Positions 34,319 through 44,318 of a DNA stretch of 64,000 bases are shown here, one piece after another (position 1 is the stretch's first letter; each line of letters begins with the position of its first letter). The position numbers and the translations under genes are program-made. The DNA comes from Arcobacter sp. CECT 8985 (GTDB lineage: Bacteria; Campylobacterota; Campylobacteria; Campylobacterales; Arcobacteraceae). The stretch is taken from positions 1 through 64,000 of the forward strand of contig NZ_PDKC01000013.1 in NCBI RefSeq assembly GCF_004116495.1. The letters run 5' to 3'. The notes beneath the pieces are model-generated. The model did not search any database. It was not told the DNA's origin and was given only the letters and a program-made list of their open reading frames with translations.

Positions 34319-36415
34319 TTATTTTTCTACTCTTCTCCAAATACTCATTTGAGATACACTATGTTGAAATTTTCTTGCAGTTTCTTTTATTACAAATGGA
34401 ACATCTTTTAAATCGACTAATTCAAATCTATCTTTTAAACTATCTTTTAATGTATCAATAGTTTTTACTTCTTTATTATCTTTATAAAAACCACCTAACC
34501 AATTATCTTTTGGAGTATACTCTTCTAACCATGTATAAGGTGATAAAAGAACTAATAAACCATTATTATTGACTCTATTTGGAATATCTTCTAAGAATTT
34601 TTGAGGATAATACAATCTATCTATTAAATTTGAACAAAATATCAAGTCATAACCACTATATAGTCCTTTTAAATTACAAGCATCACCTTGCATAAACTCA
34701 ACTTTGTTTTTAGTATCTTCTAGCCCTAAATCTTCTAGTGACACTCTTTTTTCATCAAATAATTCACCCTCTACTCTTACTTTATAAGTTAAATTATCAT
34801 ATTTTATAAGTTTTACCCCAACATTAATAAAATTAGCACTAAAATCAATTCCTAATACATTATCGAACACTTTTGCTAATTCAAAAGTACTTCTACCAAC
34901 TGAACAACCTAAATCTAGAGCTTTTTTTGTATCCATATTTTCTAGATATGGTTTTAATAACTCAATAGATTGTTTTGGAAAGTTTTTTACATTAAAAAAC
35001 TCTTCACCATAATGAAATTCACAATATTGAGAAATAAGCTCATCTGTTTCATATACATTATCATTTAATTTTGTTCTATATTCATTATCAGATTTTACAT
35101 ATCTAAAACCTGCATGTTGAAAGAAATGTTTTCTAAAAGCATATCTAGCACTTTTTAATTTTTCGTTTCCTAAAGAGATAAAAGAACCACCCTTAATTAA
35201 AGCATGTTTATCATCAAAAGTTGGTGTTGTGAAATCATCATATGCATTATGTGTTTCAAATTCATCAAATGGATACATCGGTGTGATACTCCATTGCCAA
35301 ACATTTCCAACTACATCATAAAAATCATCAAATTTATACATATCAACAGGAGTTTGATTAAAATATCTTAAACCAATATTAGATTCTTTTTCATCTGCTT
35401 TTGTGTAGTCATATAGTCTATAATATTCATCTTCAGTTGGAAGTCTTACTTCAAAACCTAATTTTTCACTTTTATATTTACAAAAAGCTTCTGCTTCATA
35501 TACATTTATATCCACAGGAAAATTTAATGGTAAAGGTACAATATTATTAATTTGTCTTAAATAATATTCATTATCTTTTTTTATCCAAAAAGTTGGCATT
35601 TTTGCTTGGGTAAAATCAAGCCATTTTAATCCATCTTTTGAAAAATAGTTCAATTTAGAGTATCCACCATCTTTAACAAATTCTAAAAATTCACCATTTG
35701 ATACAAGATATTTACTAGCTTTAAAATCTTTAATTGTTGAACGGTGATAAGAAAACTCATTATCCCATCCATAATAAATAGGATTTTGTCTATCTTTTTG
35801 TAAAACAACTTCTGAACCTTTTACATCAACTAACTCATTTTGAGGATATTGTTTACTATATTTTGTACAATAAGAAAAAGGTTCTTCTTCAATAAAATGA
35901 GATATTTCTAACTCCCTTAATAATACTGAAGATGTCTCAATATGTATATTTTGATGCTCTATTCCCATCAAAATAATCCACATAGGACTATCCCAATTTA
36001 TTGGCATAGTAAATTGTATATTATCAATTAAATCAAGAACTAAATTTTTAACATCTTCTCTATATTTTTTTACCTCATCAAACTCTGGCCAAACATAGTG
36101 CTGACTGCTTAAATCATCCCAGCTCATCTCATCTACACCAATTGCAAACGTATATTCAAACTTTTCATTTATTCTTTTATTAATAATTTTACTAACCATA
36201 AGTTTATTAATAAAAAATGTAGCAGTATGACCATAATAAAAGACCAAAGGATGTCTTAATCTATTGGGTTGTTCATAGATTGATTTTTCATCTTTTAATA
36301 AATCAAATAACTTATCTTCTAGTTCAAATGTTTGAAGGAAATAACTTTTTATTTCTTCTCTTTTTTCTTCAATAGTTCCTTCGCTTAAGTTTATGGTATC
36401 TGCTTTTATATTCAT
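34319..36415 (-). CDS. ovoA: OvoA: 5-histidylcysteine sulfoxide synthase / thiohistidine N-methyltransferase
   Basis: A 698-residue three-domain enzyme of ovothiol synthesis. The N-terminal DinB-like domain carries the iron-binding HX3HXE motif (H154, H158, E160 in IEHQNIHIE). A central formylglycine-generating-enzyme-like sulfoxide synthase domain follows (about 200-440, VVGNVWQWS, IKGGSF, FRKHFFQHAGFRYV). The C-terminal methyltransferase domain (about 490-690) has the SAM motif LDLGCSVGRST. This full-length fusion distinguishes it from EgtB. It joins Cys and His with O2 and later methylates the ring. The PLP lyase OvoB, normally needed in between, is not in the window. Its ATG overlaps the stop of the TPR gene (ATGA). 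Confidence 0.92.
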   Translation of the reverse strand: MNIKADTINLSEGTIEEKREEIKSYFLQTFELEDKLFDLLKDEKSIYEQPNRLRHPLVFYYGHTATFFINKLMVSKIINKRINEKFEYTFAIGVDEMSWDDLSSQHYVWPEFDEVKKYREDVKNLVLDLIDNIQFTMPINWDSPMWIILMGIEHQNIHIETSSVLLRELEISHFIEEEPFSYCTKYSKQYPQNELVDVKGSEVVLQKDRQNPIYYGWDNEFSYHRSTIKDFKASKYLVSNGEFLEFVKDGGYSKLNYFSKDGLKWLDFTQAKMPTFWIKKDNEYYLRQINNIVPLPLNFPVDINVYEAEAFCKYKSEKLGFEVRLPTEDEYYRLYDYTKADEKESNIGLRYFNQTPVDMYKFDDFYDVVGNVWQWSITPMYPFDEFETHNAYDDFTTPTFDDKHALIKGGSFISLGNEKLKSARYAFRKHFFQHAGFRYVKSDNEYRTKLNDNVYETDELISQYCEFHYGEEFFNVKNFPKQSIELLKPYLENMDTKKALDLGCSVGRSTFELAKVFDNVLGIDFSANFINVGVKLIKYDNLTYKVRVEGELFDEKRVSLEDLGLEDTKNKVEFMQGDACNLKGLYSGYDLIFCSNLIDRLYYPQKFLEDIPNRVNNNGLLVLLSPYTWLEEYTPKDNWLGGFYKDNKEVKTIDTLKDSLKDRFELVDLKDVPFVIKETARKFQHSVSQMSIWRRVEK

Positions 36416-38625
36416 ATTTTACCTTTTATAATATTGTCTAAAAATTCGATTTTATACTTTTTTGAAATCATTTTGTATAGATTAATTATCTGTTCATATT
36501 CATTGTTATCTATTAGTTTCCAATGATTTTCAATTCTATTTATATCATTATCAACATTTTTATTTAATAATATTTTTGAAATAATATTTTCAATTAATAA
36601 CATTCCCAATCTTTTTATAGATGAAGTTTCATCTAATATTTTAATACCCTGTGCAGTCATATTTTCTACTTTTATAAGTTCGTTATTATTTATTTGTTTT
36701 TTTGTTAAAATATTTAATGCTTGATTATGTAAAACTACAGGCATTTCATCCCTATCCCCAACTGAAGATTTAAGATTTACTCCAATTGAACCTAATTTAA
36801 TAGATTTTTCAATTATACTATTACTATTCATTCCGTTAGTTAAATACATAAATCTATAAGCAATTGACATATTTATAAAAGTCGCTCCATATTCAAAGGC
36901 TCCTAGAGCAGGAATAGATAAACATTTTTTATAAAAAGATATTGCTTTTTCATAATCTTGTTCCCATTCTGCATAATTTGCTTTAATATTATAATAGTGC
37001 CAAAGCCATAATGGCTCATTATCTTCACTATGAGAAAACAATAACTCTTCTAAACTTCTAATACAAGATAAACCCTCTTGCTTTTTGTTTTTATTTCTTT
37101 GACTTACTATAATCCAAGCTTTTCTTTGAAAATACCTAACTTGACAATCATTTGGTTTTATATTTGTATTTAAATCTAAAGATACTGGTAAACTATCATA
37201 AGCTTTATCAAATTGTCCCATTCTTTCATATAGTGAGCATAAATTTACTGAATATTTATTTGGATTTATTTCATAAAGATATTTTACTATTAGTATTGCT
37301 TGATTAAAATGTCCATTTCTTTCAAATAAAAAGATTAATTTATTCAATGAATCAATTGATATTTTTCTATAAATAGAATTATTAGTAGTATCAAAATCAT
37401 CAATATTAGAAGAATCAAACATCATGTTTGCAATATCAAACCAATAAAGATCAATTAATTCATAATGTTGCTTTTCATAAACTGCATCAATAAATTTTTC
37501 TAAAATAATCAAATATCTTCTCTCATCTAAAACTACATCTTTTATGTAATAGTACAAAATAATTAAAGATATAGGATTAGTAAAGCTATTAACACACTCT
37601 TCAATATGATTTCTCAAATGATAAGATAATCTTTTATGCTCATCTTCAAGATTATTTACTTTAACATTATTTGTAAGATATATTTGAAATGACTTTTCTT
37701 GTTTTAAAAAATGAAAATCATCAAAACTTCTATTTATAAAATTTTGAAATCCTGAAATAAGTTGATTTGTATTTGACTTTGTATCTTCTAAAAAGTTTCT
37801 TCCACAATACTCAAATAGTTCTAAAGAAATGAATTTATTTAAATCTTGCTTTATCATCAAAGATGAGCTTAATTGAAGTAATTTAAATAGTTTTTGTTCT
37901 TTACTTGATAATAATAAACTAACCTTATCATCTTCAAAAGAGTTTTTTAATTTATTTATATGAATATTTAAACATTCAAGATTTTTTAATTTTTTACTCA
38001 CTTGTTTTATTTGATCATTTCTAACATAAAAATTTACTATGACAAATCTTTTTAGAATTGAACTAATTACAATTTTCCAAAGCCAATGTTGAGTATCTAA
38101 TAAATCTGCATTATAAATATTTATTTTTGTTTTACTATCTAGTGAACTTAAAATAATTGAAACTCTTTTTAATCTTCTAGCATCTTTATTAAACCATGAT
38201 AATAAAAACTCTTTAAATTGTGAACTCTCACCATCTAAAATAGAAGGCATCATCACAAGACCAATAAAAAATAAACCTACAAAAAATAAAGAGATAGTAT
38301 CATTTACACTCCACTCAAAAGGCATTTCAAAAAGTATCTTTTTTGATATATCTTCATATATTGAAGCTGAAATAATTGCAAACATAATAACTAGAACAGA
38401 AACAATTGAAAATATAAAAGAGAATACTCTTTTTGTAAAATTATATAAAGAAGTTGAATTTTTACATACTTTTGTTAAAGATACTTCAAAGTCATCTATA
38501 GTATCAGTAATAATATATGTAATATTTACACCATCACTATTTTTTGAAACTATTGGATCTTGTTTTGTTTTTCTTGTACTAGTATTTAAAGATGATGTAA
38601 TTATATTACAATTACTTTTACTCAT
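36412..38625 (-). CDS. Membrane TPR-repeat protein of unknown function
   Basis: A 737-residue protein. Residues 1-65 are soluble; two membrane helices follow (about 67-90 and 110-129), then some 600 residues of helical sequence with tetratricopeptide-like repeats, clearest between about 400 and 600 (LFERNGHFNQAILIVKYLYEINP, LYERMGQFDKAYDSL, YAEWEQDYEKAISFYKKCL). The start is the ATG at 38625 (GAGGG site), overlapping the upstream gene by 8 bp; a longer TTG reading has no support. Its stop overlaps the ovoA start. A scaffold at the membrane for the operon's enzymes is one idea; no catalytic motif is visible. The family is not known to me. Confidence 0.8.
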   Translation of the reverse strand: MSKSNCNIITSSLNTSTRKTKQDPIVSKNSDGVNITYIITDTIDDFEVSLTKVCKNSTSLYNFTKRVFSFIFSIVSVLVIMFAIISASIYEDISKKILFEMPFEWSVNDTISLFFVGLFFIGLVMMPSILDGESSQFKEFLLSWFNKDARRLKRVSIILSSLDSKTKINIYNADLLDTQHWLWKIVISSILKRFVIVNFYVRNDQIKQVSKKLKNLECLNIHINKLKNSFEDDKVSLLLSSKEQKLFKLLQLSSSLMIKQDLNKFISLELFEYCGRNFLEDTKSNTNQLISGFQNFINRSFDDFHFLKQEKSFQIYLTNNVKVNNLEDEHKRLSYHLRNHIEECVNSFTNPISLIILYYYIKDVVLDERRYLIILEKFIDAVYEKQHYELIDLYWFDIANMMFDSSNIDDFDTTNNSIYRKISIDSLNKLIFLFERNGHFNQAILIVKYLYEINPNKYSVNLCSLYERMGQFDKAYDSLPVSLDLNTNIKPNDCQVRYFQRKAWIIVSQRNKNKKQEGLSCIRSLEELLFSHSEDNEPLWLWHYYNIKANYAEWEQDYEKAISFYKKCLSIPALGAFEYGATFINMSIAYRFMYLTNGMNSNSIIEKSIKLGSIGVNLKSSVGDRDEMPVVLHNQALNILTKKQINNNELIKVENMTAQGIKILDETSSIKRLGMLLIENIISKILLNKNVDNDINRIENHWKLIDNNEYEQIINLYKMISKKYKIEFLDNIIKGKI

Positions 38626-39184
38626 TAACACCCTCTTTTGCAAGTCTATTTTGAACTGGATCTGAAAATTTATAAGTGCCTTTTTTTACATAATAAGGCA
38701 AATTTTCTAAAGTTTGAGCTTTATACTCATTTACAAATTGTTCATCATAATTTTCAAAAGAATCTTTTAATATATCAAGATACTTAGCAGCAATTACACA
38801 ATTTGTATCGCCAGGTTTTGCAATTTTTTCTTCATTTATTGTCATAAAAGTAATTATATCTTCATCAAGTTTCTTATCAATTACATTAGATTTATCAATT
38901 AAAATATTTGAATAATTTTTTTCTCTTAATTTTAATAATTCCAATTCTTCTTTGGTTATTTTAATTACTGCACCATTTGCATAAGAATTTTCATCTTTTT
39001 GTAGATTTAAAAATACTGTGTTTACTTCTTTTTGATCTTCATAATCTACAGTTTCTATTGCATTCCATACTTTTTTTATTCCCTTTATTTTTACAGGAAT
39101 CAAATCTTCATATGAAATTTTTCTTTTAAATGACTTTTGTGCACTATTTAAATTTATCAATGAACCATATCCAAATAAATACAT
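38618..39184 (-). CDS. Gamma-glutamylcyclotransferase-fold protein
   Basis: A 188-residue protein with the GGCT/BtrG fold signature: the substrate-binding loop FGYGSLIN at 4-11 and the presumed catalytic Glu E88 in LKLREKNYS. These enzymes cleave gamma-glutamyl amides with release of pyroglutamate, including gamma-Glu amino acids and protecting groups in antibiotic synthesis (BtrG). Its start overlaps the stop of the RraA-like gene (TAATG) and its end overlaps the TPR gene. Being in an operon with ovoA, a thiol-histidine gene, suggests action on a gamma-glutamyl thiol or protected intermediate; this is inference. Confidence 0.83.
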   Translation of the reverse strand: MYLFGYGSLINLNSAQKSFKRKISYEDLIPVKIKGIKKVWNAIETVDYEDQKEVNTVFLNLQKDENSYANGAVIKITKEELELLKLREKNYSNILIDKSNVIDKKLDEDIITFMTINEEKIAKPGDTNCVIAAKYLDILKDSFENYDEQFVNEYKAQTLENLPYYVKKGTYKFSDPVQNRLAKEGVNE

Positions 39185-39663
39185 TATATTAGGTTCTCCT
39201 TTGCTATTACAATTCCATCACTATCTATATAAATATAATCACCATTTTGAATATCAACATTATCAATATTCAAATCACAAGCTATTTTACCAGCTTGTAC
39301 TTTTTCATACTTTCTAGGACATGTTCCTTTTGCATAAATTGCAATATCGAATTTTTTTATATTTTGAATATCTCTTACATAGCCATTTATAACCAATGCA
39401 TTATATTTATTATCATATGCAAATTTTGTAAGCTTATCACCAACTACAGCATAATATTGCATCTGAACATCAACAACTACAACTTTACCCTCTCCATTTA
39501 TATTTTTTAATAGTTTTATTAAATCATTGTTATTTTTATCTAATTTTACTGTTATTATTTCACCATATGCTTTATTTAAACCACCATATGATTTAAAATC
39601 TGGTCCTAATACATTTACTTTTTGAGGGTTATTATCACAAATATCAGCTGTAAAAAAACTCAT
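39184..39663 (-). CDS. RraA-like / HMG-CHA aldolase-fold protein
   Basis: A 159-residue protein of the RraA superfamily, colinear with E. coli RraA (start FFTADICD, middle YGEIITVKL, end GDYIYIDSDGIVIAKE). E. coli RraA inhibits RNase E, but Campylobacterota are generally thought to lack RNase E. Here the motif NGYVRD (R97, D98) keeps the Arg-Asp pair used for metal and substrate by the related 4-hydroxy-4-methyl-2-oxoglutarate/oxaloacetate aldolases-decarboxylases; E. coli RraA has Gln instead of that Asp. An enzymatic role is therefore possible. It is the first gene of the left operon and is divergent from the glutamate mutase genes. Confidence 0.82.
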   Translation of the reverse strand: MSFFTADICDNNPQKVNVLGPDFKSYGGLNKAYGEIITVKLDKNNNDLIKLLKNINGEGKVVVVDVQMQYYAVVGDKLTKFAYDNKYNALVINGYVRDIQNIKKFDIAIYAKGTCPRKYEKVQAGKIACDLNIDNVDIQNGDYIYIDSDGIVIAKENLI

Positions 39664-39787
39664 TTGATTTTCCTTCTTAAATTTTAAACTAATTAATTAT
39701 ATTTTACTTATCTTAAATTTAACCAAAATTAGTTACCATATTTACCTAATAAAATTAATTACACACAAAACAAAAATAGGTATATAT
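39664..39787. promoter_or_regulatory. 124-bp shared promoter gap between the OvoA and glutamate-mutase operons
   Basis: A/T-rich gap between divergent ATGs. It must hold both promoters. The partly symmetric stretch around TTAGTTACC...ACCTAA (about 39728-39750) could be an operator but the dyad is imperfect. Confidence 0.5.
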
Positions 39788-40195
39788 ATGAAAGTAGTCA
39801 CAGGAGTAGTAGGGAATGATATACATGTAGTAGCTAATAGACTTATTGAAATATCATTACAAGCAAGAGGGTATGAAGTATTTAATTTGGGAGTTAATAC
39901 TTATCTTGAAGAGTTTATAGACGCAGTTATTGAAACAAATGCCGATATATTATTAATATCATCATTAAATGGTGAAGCAGAAGGATGGTGTAGAGAACTT
40001 AACATTTTAAAATCTAAATATAAATCTTTAGATGATGTTGTCTTTATGCTAGGTGGAAACTTAGCAGTGGGAGAAGCTAAAACTGAAGACCTAGTTCCAA
40101 AATTTAAGAATTATGGATTTGACTTAGTTTTTCATCAAGTAGATTTAAATAGTGGATTAGATGCATTAGAAAAATATGTTAAGGCAAAAAAATGA
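39788..40195 (+). CDS. glmS: Glutamate mutase small (B12-binding) subunit
   Basis: A 135-residue cobalamin-binding domain that pairs with the large subunit to interconvert L-glutamate and (2S,3S)-3-methylaspartate. It aligns along its whole length with clostridial GlmS (GVVGNDIHVVANRL; ISSLNGEAEG; LGGNLAVGE). The cobalt-ligating His is H13 with its D11 partner. The family motif DxHxxG reads DIHVVA, so Gly is replaced by Ala (A16). It is the first gene of a four-gene plus-strand operon and overlaps the large-subunit gene by 4 bp (ATGA). Confidence 0.93.
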   Translation: MKVVTGVVGNDIHVVANRLIEISLQARGYEVFNLGVNTYLEEFIDAVIETNADILLISSLNGEAEGWCRELNILKSKYKSLDDVVFMLGGNLAVGEAKTEDLVPKFKNYGFDLVFHQVDLNSGLDALEKYVKAKK

Positions 40196-41556
40196 GTTTA
40201 CTGCAAGAAGAAAGAGAAATAATAGTTCAAAATGAGTATGCAGATAATTTTGATTTTTCAGAAATTGAAGAGTTTGTAAAAAATGCAAGTAAAAATCTTT
40301 TTATCTCACACAATTTTAAAAATAGTAATAAAATGCTAGTTCAGCCAAGAGGTGGTTTCCCAACTTATCAAAAACAATTTGCATTAAATGATTTTTTTGT
40401 AAAAGCAAATGTTGATGTTTTACCTTTAACAATCGATTCAAATACAAGACTTAATGATTATGCAATGTCAAAAAAGATGTTAAGATTAAGTGAAGAAAAT
40501 GAAGTTGATATGTTAAATGGTTATCCACTTGTAAATCATGGATATAGAACAACTAGAAAAATGATTACACATTTTGACAAACCAGTTAGTTTAAGACATG
40601 GAACACCAGATGCTAGACTTTTAGTTGAGACAGCAATTGCCTCAGGTATTTTTGAAATAGAGGGTGGTCCAATTACTTATCTATTACCATATTCAAAGAA
40701 CTTTCCAATTGATAAAGCATTTTTATATTGGAAATATGTAGAAAGAGTCTGTGCAAAATATTCAACTTTAAATGAACCAATAAATAGAGAATCATTTGGT
40801 CCTTTAACAGCAACACTCGTTCCACCTTGTATTACTATTGTAATTCAGTTACTTGAGATGCTTTTATCACTTGAAGAAGGAGTTAAATCTTTTTCAGTAT
40901 CATTTTCTCAAAGTGGTTCAGTAAATCAAGATATTGTTACAAGTGCAGTATTAAAAAAATTAGCAAAACTCTACGCTAAAAAAATAGATTGTGAAGATGC
41001 AAATATTCACCTTGTTTATCATCAGTGGATGGGCGCATTTCCTTCAAACAAAGAGTATTCTGAATCTTTAATAAACACATCAACAGTTATTGCAAGTTTA
41101 GTTGGTGCAGATAAAATCATAACAAAAACAAGAGATGAAGCTTTTGGTATTCCTACAAAAGAAGCAAATGCAAAAACAGTAGCAAATACTCAATATACAC
41201 TTAGAATATTAAATGGCTTACCAAATATTGTAGATGAAAAAGAAGAAGAGATTTTAACAGAAGAAGTAAATAGTATCATGGAAGCTGTTTTCAATGATAC
41301 TGCTGATACTTTATGGAGAAAAGTATTTAATAGTGTAAAAAATGGAATAATTGATGTTCCTTTCTCACCACATATTATAAATCACAATGAGGTAGTAACA
41401 GTAAGAGATAAAAATAAAAATATCAGAATAATAAAAAGAGGAAAACTCCCAATTAGTGATAAATGCTTTGAATATGAAAAAGCCCAATGTGATCTTAACA
41501 AAGATGCAACATCAATCGTAAATGATATTATACATGATATAGGAATAATGCAATGA
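40192..41556 (+). CDS. glmE: Glutamate mutase large (catalytic) subunit
   Basis: A 454-residue TIM-barrel subunit. Known active-site residues of Clostridium cochlearium GlmE all have counterparts at a constant offset: the arginine claw R53, R86 and R135 (for R66, R100, R149), E157 (E171), Y163 (Y177) and Y167 (Y181). Segments such as RHGTPDARLL, PFGPLTATLVPP-like NRESFGPLTATLVPP and VYHQWMGAFP are highly typical. The protein should thus be an active glutamate mutase rather than a different B12 mutase. Its end overlaps the reactivase gene by 4 bp. Confidence 0.95.
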   Translation: MSLLQEEREIIVQNEYADNFDFSEIEEFVKNASKNLFISHNFKNSNKMLVQPRGGFPTYQKQFALNDFFVKANVDVLPLTIDSNTRLNDYAMSKKMLRLSEENEVDMLNGYPLVNHGYRTTRKMITHFDKPVSLRHGTPDARLLVETAIASGIFEIEGGPITYLLPYSKNFPIDKAFLYWKYVERVCAKYSTLNEPINRESFGPLTATLVPPCITIVIQLLEMLLSLEEGVKSFSVSFSQSGSVNQDIVTSAVLKKLAKLYAKKIDCEDANIHLVYHQWMGAFPSNKEYSESLINTSTVIASLVGADKIITKTRDEAFGIPTKEANAKTVANTQYTLRILNGLPNIVDEKEEEILTEEVNSIMEAVFNDTADTLWRKVFNSVKNGIIDVPFSPHIINHNEVVTVRDKNKNIRIIKRGKLPISDKCFEYEKAQCDLNKDATSIVNDIIHDIGIMQ

Positions 41557-42734
41557 AAGATAGATTATTAATAGATATTGGAAGTACATATTTTAAAGTA
41601 AGTGATTCAGAAAATCTTCAACAACATTTTAGAGATTTTAATAAAGATATTTATGATGATTTAAAATATAAATGTAGTGATATTTTAGAAAAATATAATA
41701 AAGATGATATTTATATTTGTTCTTCTGCAAATGGAGGACTTAGTACTTTAATAATAGGAATTACAAACTCTTTTTCTTTAAAATATGCAAAAAATATAGC
41801 TTTTAACTCAGGTATTAACATCATTGATACTGTTTTATATCAAAATATTGAACAAACAACTATTCCTAGTGATTTAATTGATGTAGTTATAATAACAGGA
41901 GCAATTGATAGTGTTAGTAATGTTTTTGATGAAAGATTATTTAACTATTTAAATGAGCTTAACTATTCAAATATAGTTTATGTTGGTAATGAAAAAGATA
42001 GTAGATATTTAAATGAAAATATTAAAAATTTAATTGTTTTACCAAATATTATTACAAACAAACTTCAAATAAACGAAATGCAACTAAAACACTATTTAAC
42101 AAATTTATATCAAGCAGATATTATGGGAAAAGAAGATATTAAAAATCTATATGAAATTACTAATAATCAAATATATTCTACTCCATATATTGTAAATAAA
42201 ACTTTGCCTTTAATAAATAGTATGTTTAAAGTTGCTGATCCTTTTATTTTAATTGATATTGGTGGAGCAACAACTGATATTCATTATAGTACTACACTAG
42301 TAAATGATAATATGGTAAAAGATAGTGAGTTTGATAGACTTGTATTTAAAAAACTTGGTGTATTTAAATCAAAAGAATCTTTAATATTTGCAGCAAAAAA
42401 CAATGAATTTGTATATGAATTACTTGCATTTTTGAATGTTACAGAACATATATTTGAAGAACAAAGTGATAAAGCATTAAAAATTTTAATGCAACTGGCA
42501 ATTTTTCTAGTTTTATATAAAGTATCAAAAGCCCACCCTTTATATGTTAACCTCAAATTAGATTTACTTAAATCTGTTGTATTAACAGGTGGAATTACAA
42601 AAGTTTTAAAACAAGATGAAGTTGAAAATATTATTGGATTTTTTTATAAAAAGATTTTAAATAGTAGTGTAAAACCAAATATTATATTAGATAGTAATTA
42701 TGAAATTTGGACTTTAGGTATAACACAAAAATAA
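41553..42734 (+). CDS. glmL: MutL-type glutamate mutase reactivase
   Basis: A 393-residue ASKHA-fold ATPase of the GlmL/MutL family, which exchanges damaged cobalamin in the mutase. Two phosphate-binding segments are seen: LLIDIGSTYFKV near the start and ILIDIGGATTDIHY at about 230-245; LTGGITKVLK occurs near the end. It is somewhat shorter than clostridial MutL (about 460 residues), with the loss mainly in the middle and the tail. It lies between the mutase and ligase genes, with a 9-bp gap to the latter. Confidence 0.88.
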   Translation: MKDRLLIDIGSTYFKVSDSENLQQHFRDFNKDIYDDLKYKCSDILEKYNKDDIYICSSANGGLSTLIIGITNSFSLKYAKNIAFNSGINIIDTVLYQNIEQTTIPSDLIDVVIITGAIDSVSNVFDERLFNYLNELNYSNIVYVGNEKDSRYLNENIKNLIVLPNIITNKLQINEMQLKHYLTNLYQADIMGKEDIKNLYEITNNQIYSTPYIVNKTLPLINSMFKVADPFILIDIGGATTDIHYSTTLVNDNMVKDSEFDRLVFKKLGVFKSKESLIFAAKNNEFVYELLAFLNVTEHIFEEQSDKALKILMQLAIFLVLYKVSKAHPLYVNLKLDLLKSVVLTGGITKVLKQDEVENIIGFFYKKILNSSVKPNIILDSNYEIWTLGITQK

Positions 42735-42743
42735 GGAGCTAAA

Positions 42744-44318
42744 ATGTCTATAAATTGTATAAGAACACTGTTAGAAGATGCTAATATATCTTCTAGTGAT
42801 AAAATTGCCATAATTCAAGATGATTCAAAAATCACTTATGGTGAGTTATTTACAAAAGTAAATCAAGTGGCGTTTTATTTAAATGAATTAGATTTACCAA
42901 AAGGTAGTAGAATTGGTATATATTCAAATAAATCAATAGATCAAGTTATTGCTATTTTAGCCATATTATCTACAGATTATATTTTAGTTCCTTTGACAAG
43001 AATGTTACAACCAGAACAAGTAAAATATATTATTGAAGATTGTGATATTAAATGTATCATTACTGATAAAGTAAAAATTGAGAAAATTGAAGAAATAGAG
43101 TTTAATGGTCAAATAATCTCATATGAAAGAACAACAAATGATTTAGCTTCTTTTGAAGAGATATACAAATATTATAATAAACCATATAATCATGATATCA
43201 ATGGGCATGACAATGCTGTTATTACATATTCATTTGGACTAACAGGAAAACCAAAAGGAATAGTTATTTCACATAGAAATCTAATTGATTCTGCAAGAGT
43301 AGTATCAAAATATCTAAAATTAAAAGAAGATGATGTAATTTCTGGATTGCTAATATTTAATCTTGATTATGGGTTAAATCAAATCTTTTGCTCTTTATAT
43401 AAAAGAGCAACACTAGCACTACATAGATTTATTTTACCAAATGATTTTTTTAACCATATAATAAAAGATAAAGTAACAGTTCTTCCTCTTATGCCAATTC
43501 ATCTTACGTTAATGTTTGATGAACAAGAACATAAACTTCCAAGTAATGAATTACTTAAAGATGTAAGAATTATCACTTCTTCTGGTGGAAATGTAAAAAC
43601 AAAAATGATAAATGATGTTGAAAAATACTTTTCAAATGCACAATTTTTTTCTATGCATGGACTAACTGAAGCTTTTAGATCAACATACTTAGAACCAAGC
43701 CAAATTAAAATTAGACCTGATTCTATTGGAAAAGCGATTCCCGATGTTGAATTATATATAATAAATGAACAAGGGCAAGAGTGTAAACCAAGAGAAGTTG
43801 GAGAATTAATTCATAGGGGTGGATATATTTATAAAGGTTATTGGAATGCATCAGTTGAAACTAAAGAAAGATTTAAATCTATAAAAATTCTAAAAAATAT
43901 CATAAATCTAGAAGGACACTTATGCGATGAAATAGTAGTTGCAACTGGTGATTATGTTTATAAAGATGAAGAGGGATATTTATATTTTGTATCCAGAAAA
44001 GATGATATGATAAAAACAAGAGGCTTTAGAGTAAGTCCTTATGAAATAGAATCAGTAGCATATAAAAATATACCTCAAATCGAACAATGCGCAGTTTTTT
44101 CAATTGAAAATCCTGAAATAGAAGAAGAAATAATATTTGTTTATTCAAGTAGAAGTGAACTTGCTTCAAATGAAATTATTTTTGAACTAAAAAAGCATTT
44201 GGCATCTTACATGATACCAAGTAAAATATTTTATAAAAAATCACTACCTTTAGTTCCTAGTGATAGAAACAAGATAAATAAAGAAAGTTTAAAAGAAGAC
44301 TTGATAAATAATGTATAA
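42744..44318 (+). CDS. AMP-forming acyl/aminoacyl ligase with atypical P-loop
   Basis: A 524-residue ANL-superfamily adenylating enzyme. The P-loop reads YSFGLTGKPKG (162-172) instead of the usual TSGSTGxPKG; later motifs are normal (SMHGLTEAF; ATGDYVYKDEEGYLYFVSR; KTRGFRVSPYEIE) and the catalytic C-terminal Lys is present (K510 in DRNKINK). No carrier domain is attached. Its position as last gene of the glutamate mutase operon (9-bp gap) suggests 3-methylaspartate or a derivative as substrate, like VinN of the vicenistatin pathway, which adenylates 3-methylaspartate beside its own glutamate mutase genes. The substrate and the acceptor (CoA, carrier protein or amine) are not shown by sequence. 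Confidence 0.85.
   Translation: MSINCIRTLLEDANISSSDKIAIIQDDSKITYGELFTKVNQVAFYLNELDLPKGSRIGIYSNKSIDQVIAILAILSTDYILVPLTRMLQPEQVKYIIEDCDIKCIITDKVKIEKIEEIEFNGQIISYERTTNDLASFEEIYKYYNKPYNHDINGHDNAVITYSFGLTGKPKGIVISHRNLIDSARVVSKYLKLKEDDVISGLLIFNLDYGLNQIFCSLYKRATLALHRFILPNDFFNHIIKDKVTVLPLMPIHLTLMFDEQEHKLPSNELLKDVRIITSSGGNVKTKMINDVEKYFSNAQFFSMHGLTEAFRSTYLEPSQIKIRPDSIGKAIPDVELYIINEQGQECKPREVGELIHRGGYIYKGYWNASVETKERFKSIKILKNIINLEGHLCDEIVVATGDYVYKDEEGYLYFVSRKDDMIKTRGFRVSPYEIESVAYKNIPQIEQCAVFSIENPEIEEEIIFVYSSRSELASNEIIFELKKHLASYMIPSKIFYKKSLPLVPSDRNKINKESLKEDLINNV

Follow-up and report, generated by a model that had tools for sequence, protein, structure and literature searches.

A 64,000-nucleotide window of Arcobacter sp. 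CECT 8985 (contig NZ_PDKC01000013.1, positions 1 to 64,000) contains two gene runs that diverge from a short intergenic region, and the eight genes of these runs (34319-44318) were analyzed. As judged from gene order, the conserved unit at this locus is not all eight genes; it is five of them, an RraA-like gene facing the glutamate mutase genes glmS, glmE, and glmL and a gene for an adenosine monophosphate (AMP)-forming ligase. It is likely that this cassette makes and activates 3-methylaspartate, with the RraA-like enzyme in the same route and the ovothiol genes of the locus separate. The conserved unit, the intact mutase residues, a ligase pocket like that of VinN, the co-inheritance of the ligase and RraA, and the transfer of the cassette between phyla could be read directly from the sequences. 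We give about even weight to the broader proposal that the cassette, nearly unchanged and passed between phyla, leads to an undescribed metabolite or modification derived from 3-methylaspartate, and that the RraA-like protein is an enzyme dedicated to this route.

In the proposed route, the B12-dependent GlmS/GlmE, with GlmL as a helper ATPase, would convert L-glutamate to (2S,3S)-3-methylaspartate. The ligase would bind this compound as a beta-amino acid in its VinN-like pocket and form the adenylate on the C4 carboxylate, which might then, more speculatively, be handed to an acceptor, which could be coenzyme A (CoA), a carrier protein encoded at a distance, or a small amine. An aminotransferase would convert 3-methylaspartate to the 2-oxo acid 3-methyl-oxaloacetate. 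The RraA-like enzyme, which has the class II pyruvate aldolase/oxaloacetate-decarboxylase fold, would most simply act on 3-methyl-oxaloacetate, a step that is also speculative.

The neighborhoods of the mutase genes were compared in Arcobacteraceae (60) and in other families of Campylobacterota (20), and distributions were counted in sets of 104 Arcobacteraceae genomes and 397 genomes across Campylobacterota. The order GlmS-GlmE-GlmL-ligase was nearly invariant in these neighborhoods, and the divergent arrangement of RraA and this gene run was found in all six families that carry GlmE. Outside the genera in which OvoA is linked, the RraA-like gene mostly faced GlmS directly, and OvoA was not nearby. 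The ligase (E <= 1e-120) was present in 56 of the 57 GlmE-carrying genomes of Campylobacterota and in no genome without GlmE. When bacterial genomes were scanned with the ligase as query, the identical divergent five-gene order emerged in about 40 marine Gammaproteobacteria. The divergent pairing of RraA and GlmS is therefore far beyond chance, since two phyla share it, across tens of genomes. No other enzyme gene recurred beside the mutase in the loci of either phylum.

The ligases of the gammaproteobacterial cassettes showed 69-75% identity, and their hosts included Colwellia, Thalassotalea, Neptuniibacter, Granulosicoccus, Vibrio hannami, Reinekea, Halieaceae, and others. In a quick, unrooted tree built jointly from ligase and GlmE (the long-branch row L227 in it is to be disregarded), the gammaproteobacterial and campylobacterotal sequences interleaved with well-supported branches, which indicated that the cassette moved between the phyla. 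The cassette was also found in one Rhodothermales bin, the sequence of which grouped inside Granulosicoccaceae; this may be a binning error. When plasmid-borne cassettes were sought by tblastn, neither the ligase nor GlmE as query gave a match of 60% identity or more.

GlmE, the catalytic subunit of glutamate mutase (40192-41556, plus strand), aligned end to end with the enzyme of C. cochlearium (1CB7/6H9E, 3e-77). It was far above the cut-off of PF06368 (8e-116) and reached 370.2 compared to the cut-off of 390.1 for TIGR01503. All eight catalytic residues, which we take to be R66, R100, R149, E171, Y177, Y181, K326, and E330 in C. cochlearium numbering, were present in 127/127 GlmE sequences. 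The B12-binding subunit GlmS (39788-40195, plus strand) scored 159.5 bits for NF002612 (cut-off 110) and did not reach the cut-off of TIGR01501. In its B12-binding motif, DxHxxA replaced DxHxxG in 119/119 homologues while SSL and GG were kept, and the motif was invariant among them save for I/V at x. The GlmL-type ATPase (41553-42734, plus strand; PF13941, 2e-28) was far below the cut-off of NF040745 (85.5 vs 475) and is a probable mutase chaperone or reactivase of a short, divergent subtype. Apart from these cassettes, a distant glutamate mutase set was observed next to an asparagine synthetase A gene and a gene for an EamA transporter on a plasmid of Methylobacter sp. YRD-M1 (L252, 2895-8255); these genes may serve the synthesis and export of a methylated compound resembling asparagine.

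The AMP-forming ligase (42744-44318, plus strand; PF00501, 2e-63) resembled amino-acid adenylation enzymes over its full length, and its nearest named family was TIGR03098 (435 bits, under the cut-off of 592). With the 150 residues of the pocket stretch as query, the best matches in PDB were VinN (3wv4, 3wvn), followed by TycA variants engineered for beta-amino acids. In VinN, F231, S299, and a shortened loop with K330/R331 allow 3-methylaspartate to be used as a beta-amino acid (review PMC11253843). A VinN-type pocket was defined by an Asp for the amino group, an aromatic residue at 231, Ser 299, Arg 331, and a shortened beta13-beta14 loop. The gap-free alignment placed D208, Y209, S280, and R312 of the ligase at D230, F231, S299, and R331 of VinN, with equal loop length, so that the ligase has all of these features but not the Lys found at position 330 of VinN. 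The four residues were invariant in 135/136 ligase homologues. In a relative encoded at an exosortase locus, the positions of Y209 and S280 hold A and T, respectively, and R312 is present, which argues that the VinN-like pocket is more than family background. Moreover, the predicted structure of the ligase (mean predicted local distance difference test score of 80.6, with low confidence in the 305-313 loop) ranked VinN with 3-methylaspartate first among fold matches, at Z 42.1 and 2.3 A over 376 residues. The predicted substrate of the ligase is 3-methylaspartate, which would be adenylated.

The RraA-like protein (39184-39663, minus strand, 159 residues) belongs to PF03737 (2.6e-32) and was above the cut-off of TIGR01935. 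The motif of the class II pyruvate aldolases/decarboxylases is presumably an Arg-Asp pair with an acidic residue upstream, of the D-X20-R-D type. In the RraA-like protein, R97-D98 was 99% conserved, and the position 21 residues before R97 was acidic in 108/111 sequences (D in 30, E in 78). It scored 134.1 for NF006875, the equivalog of the RNase E regulator, just below the cut-off of 136, and the cut-off of the HMG aldolase equivalog was not reached either. A second RraA-like gene of this genome (C11:197656-198135, L148) belongs to a separate clade that is widespread in Arcobacteraceae, a group in which, to our knowledge, RNase E is not expected. The cassette clade was separate from this second copy in a tree in which the clade of the second paralogue was well supported, and copies were assigned to the cassette or to the paralogue by that tree.

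The RraA gene is the first of the ovothiol operon here, but its distribution tracks the mutase and not OvoA. In one genus (g2), the ovothiol operon includes RraA at a distance from the mutase, yet RraA was present in 13/14 genomes with GlmE and in 0/17 without (p = 7e-8). Among the genomes of this genus that carry OvoA, the counts were 13/14 and 0/4, respectively, and the OvoA-carrying genomes without GlmE that were tested had only the other paralogue clade. The sequence-only reading had tied the RraA-fold protein to methylaspartate, and this hint agrees with the evidence. A class I aminotransferase gene was found in the RraA flank of 21 gammaproteobacterial loci; it adjoined RraA in 20 of them and was convergent with it, though the flanking genes further out differed.

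An aminotransferase and RraA would fit a route from 3-methylaspartate through 3-methyl-oxaloacetate to 2-oxobutyrate, which could serve as a bypass in the supply of 2-oxobutyrate and isoleucine from glutamate. The conserved R-D pair and the flanking aminotransferase are consistent with such a bypass, and class II aldolases of the RraA fold also decarboxylate oxaloacetate (PMC5065237). Threonine ammonia-lyase was, however, present in 101/104 Arcobacteraceae genomes, with the cassette or without it, so that isoleucine supply is an unlikely purpose. The bypass would also give no role to the ligase, which accompanies the mutase most strictly, and we regard the bypass as improbable.

Several observations weigh against the proposed route to an activated 3-methylaspartate. 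K330 of VinN corresponds to F311 in the ligase, which is therefore classed as VinN-like and not as VinN. R312 and the motif GLTEAFRSTYL also occur in the exosortase-linked ligase and are thus non-specific, and CoA ligases and adenylation domains were within one Z unit of VinN in the fold ranking. The GlmE-carrying genome G053 has no ligase at the locus. In several genera of Arcobacteraceae, RraA is part of the ovothiol operon and distant from the mutase, and the convergent aminotransferase may be a housekeeping neighbor. In vicenistatin biosynthesis, 3-methylaspartate is passed to the acyl carrier protein (ACP) VinL and decarboxylated by VinO (PMC11284099); neither a carrier protein nor a VinO-like decarboxylase was found in the cassette loci of either phylum. 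Genome-wide, only three PP-binding proteins were found: two belong to aryl-polyene-like clusters, and the other is probably the fatty-acid ACP. The same search of the genome for PF02784 decarboxylases gave just two, among which no spare VinO-like one was found.

These absences bear on the use of the adenylate. The ligase may load an ACP encoded elsewhere, as in vicenistatin biosynthesis, for a lipid, polyketide or peptide. The likeness of its pocket to VinN speaks for this, as do TIGR03098 ligases that are encoded with an ACP and a pyridoxal phosphate (PLP)-dependent decarboxylase, and the lack of a carrier gene at the loci and of free candidates in the genome speaks against it. We consider such carrier-bound use possible but rather unlikely. 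CoA or an amine is at least as likely an acceptor as a carrier protein, because the cassette lacks counterparts of VinL and VinO and the genome yielded no spare copy. The combination of a PLP decarboxylase and an ACP with an exosortase-type ligase was seen on an Aureimonas plasmid (L251 3992-6792). Two regions of the Arcobacter genome, on contigs C28 (L145 2133-11025) and C19 (L146 1-9566), carry ammonia-lyase, ketosynthase, ACP, and acyltransferase genes and resemble aryl polyene clusters.

The ligase could also be a general acyl-CoA ligase that works with the mutase in glutamate catabolism by the methylaspartate fermentation pathway, and some CoA ligases did equal VinN as fold matches. Against this, the amino-acid-binding Asp and the VinN-like pocket are invariant in the ligase, and no lyase or hydratase was linked to the mutase at the loci compared (no search of the rest of the genome for a lyase was made). 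This role is unlikely, and the activation of 3-methylaspartate itself by the ligase remains our preferred reading.

The sequence-only reading had proposed that the two operons form a single system with a joint product of methylaspartate and ovothiol, and had set the phyletic co-occurrence of the eight genes as a test. Among the 104 Arcobacteraceae genomes, GlmE was found in 60 and OvoA above the cut-off in 79; both were present in 55, GlmE only in 5, OvoA only in 24, and neither in 20. OvoA and GlmE lay within about 20 kilobases of each other in 24 of the 55 genomes with both and were unlinked in 31. The distribution of GlmE and OvoA thus ruled out an eight-gene island as a general rule. Among 40 cassette-bearing gammaproteobacteria, OvoA was above the cut-off in only 6 and absent in 34, which indicated that the cassette works without ovothiol in most of these hosts. 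Moreover, a genome of the same genus, G080, has a clean internal deletion (L106 11869-12590) that starts at the 5' end of glmE and runs to the 3' end of the ligase gene; glmS, RraA, GGCT, TPR, and OvoA are intact, which makes this strain a natural one for comparison. The gene for the tetratricopeptide repeat (TPR) protein was found in nine Arcobacteraceae genomes without OvoA.

The part of the single-system proposal that stood is the co-inheritance of RraA, mutase, and ligase; the ovothiol genes proved to be separate, and the joint product was not supported, given the unlinked operons, the gammaproteobacteria without OvoA, and the deletion in G080. A single methylaspartate-ovothiol pathway, in which the GGCT-like protein would act as a deprotecting enzyme, is favored by the adjacency of the eight genes in several genera of Arcobacteraceae and by the presence of OvoA in 52 of the 57 GlmE-carrying genomes of Campylobacterota, compared to 119/397 overall (18/20 vs 31/68 at the genus level). 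With losses in both directions in Arcobacteraceae and with TPR genes in genomes without OvoA, such a pathway is very improbable. The co-occurrence partly reflects clade structure, as these families carry OvoA widely (phylogeny was not fully corrected for); it is largely a clade-level pattern and leaves room for a loosely linked physiology. On the comparison of neighborhoods, the OvoA, TPR, and GGCT genes are later neighbors of the cassette, in Arcobacteraceae only.

These neighbors lie on the minus strand. OvoA (34319-36415) has both the 5-histidylcysteine sulfoxide synthase domain and the methyltransferase domain, with scores of 638.8 for TIGR04344 (cut-off 400) and 336 for TIGR04345 (cut-off 170). 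The membrane-anchored TPR protein of 737-743 residues (36412-38625) had weak TPR matches, and the fold search gave only generic matches to the TPR superhelix; its likely ATG at 38625 lies within the end of the GGCT gene. The GGCT/ChaC-like protein (38618-39184) was just under the cut-off of PF04752 (E=0.0013), and a YGSL-like motif and E88..Y91 were conserved in 23 homologues. No OvoB gene lies beside OvoA at this locus. At five loci from several genera of Arcobacteraceae, OvoA is followed by a gene for a MalY/PatB-like PLP enzyme, a candidate OvoB, and several of these OvoA genes are shorter, with open frames of about 616-661 codons. At five other loci, most of which lack the TPR and GGCT genes, a gene of the ADP-ribosylglycohydrolase family either separates OvoA from RraA or adjoins RraA.

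The 124-base-pair (bp) gap described from the sequence alone was confirmed on re-check, as were all eight genes, their orientation, and their close packing, with overlaps of 1-8 bp or a spacing of 9 bp within each run. The divergent region between RraA and GlmS (39664-39787) is AT-rich. Its counterpart in relatives usually measures about 60-270 bp, but in some of them the genes overlap and in others there is an insertion. Promoter-like matches over this region were at the level of shuffled sequence (102 vs 88.5 ± 10.8), and no Rfam elements were found in it or in seven gammaproteobacterial loci.

In the open-access literature (subscription papers were not covered), nothing was found that joins glutamate mutase with RraA, and no description of the cassette in Campylobacterota was found. 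The activation of 3-methylaspartate has so far been known mainly from antibiotic clusters of actinomycetes. That common marine and microaerobic bacteria carry such a compact, strongly conserved cassette suggests an as yet unknown metabolite in the two phyla, and the cassette offers a concrete, testable role for an RraA-family protein in Campylobacterota. Furthermore, the relation of the exosortase-type ligase of Aureimonas to VinN-like pockets suggests aspartate-like amino acids as substrates of the ligases at exosortase loci.

Compared with known systems, the subunits and the active site of the mutase are those of clostridial GlmS/GlmE/GlmL in glutamate fermentation, whereas the cassette has a ligase and no methylaspartate ammonia-lyase. 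The RraA-like protein shares the fold, the R-D pair, and the conserved acidic residues of the RraA/HMG-CHA aldolase superfamily, but it forms a separate clade and missed both equivalog cut-offs. The neighboring ovothiol gene is a full OvoA that lies outside the cassette. The ligase is 33% identical to the Aureimonas member of TIGR03098, the exosortase A-associated acyl-CoA ligase family to which it is nearest and with which it shares the GLTEAFRSTYL motif; unlike that family, it falls under the cut-off, carries Y209 and S280 at the pocket positions of A and T, and has no recurring exosortase, ACP or decarboxylase neighbors. The closest parallel in layout is VinH/VinI/VinN/VinL/VinO of vicenistatin biosynthesis in Streptomyces halstedii, where glutamate mutase E and S also stand beside a stand-alone adenylation enzyme with the same Asp, aromatic, Ser, and Arg residues and the same loop length. 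The cassette differs in its additional GlmL and RraA-like genes, in the replacement of K330 by F, in its lack of an ACP, a PLP decarboxylase, and a polyketide synthase, and in its hosts, which are Campylobacterota and marine Gammaproteobacteria. It is best seen as a mobile cassette for the probable synthesis and activation of 3-methylaspartate, which follows the vicenistatin starter route through two steps and then departs from it.

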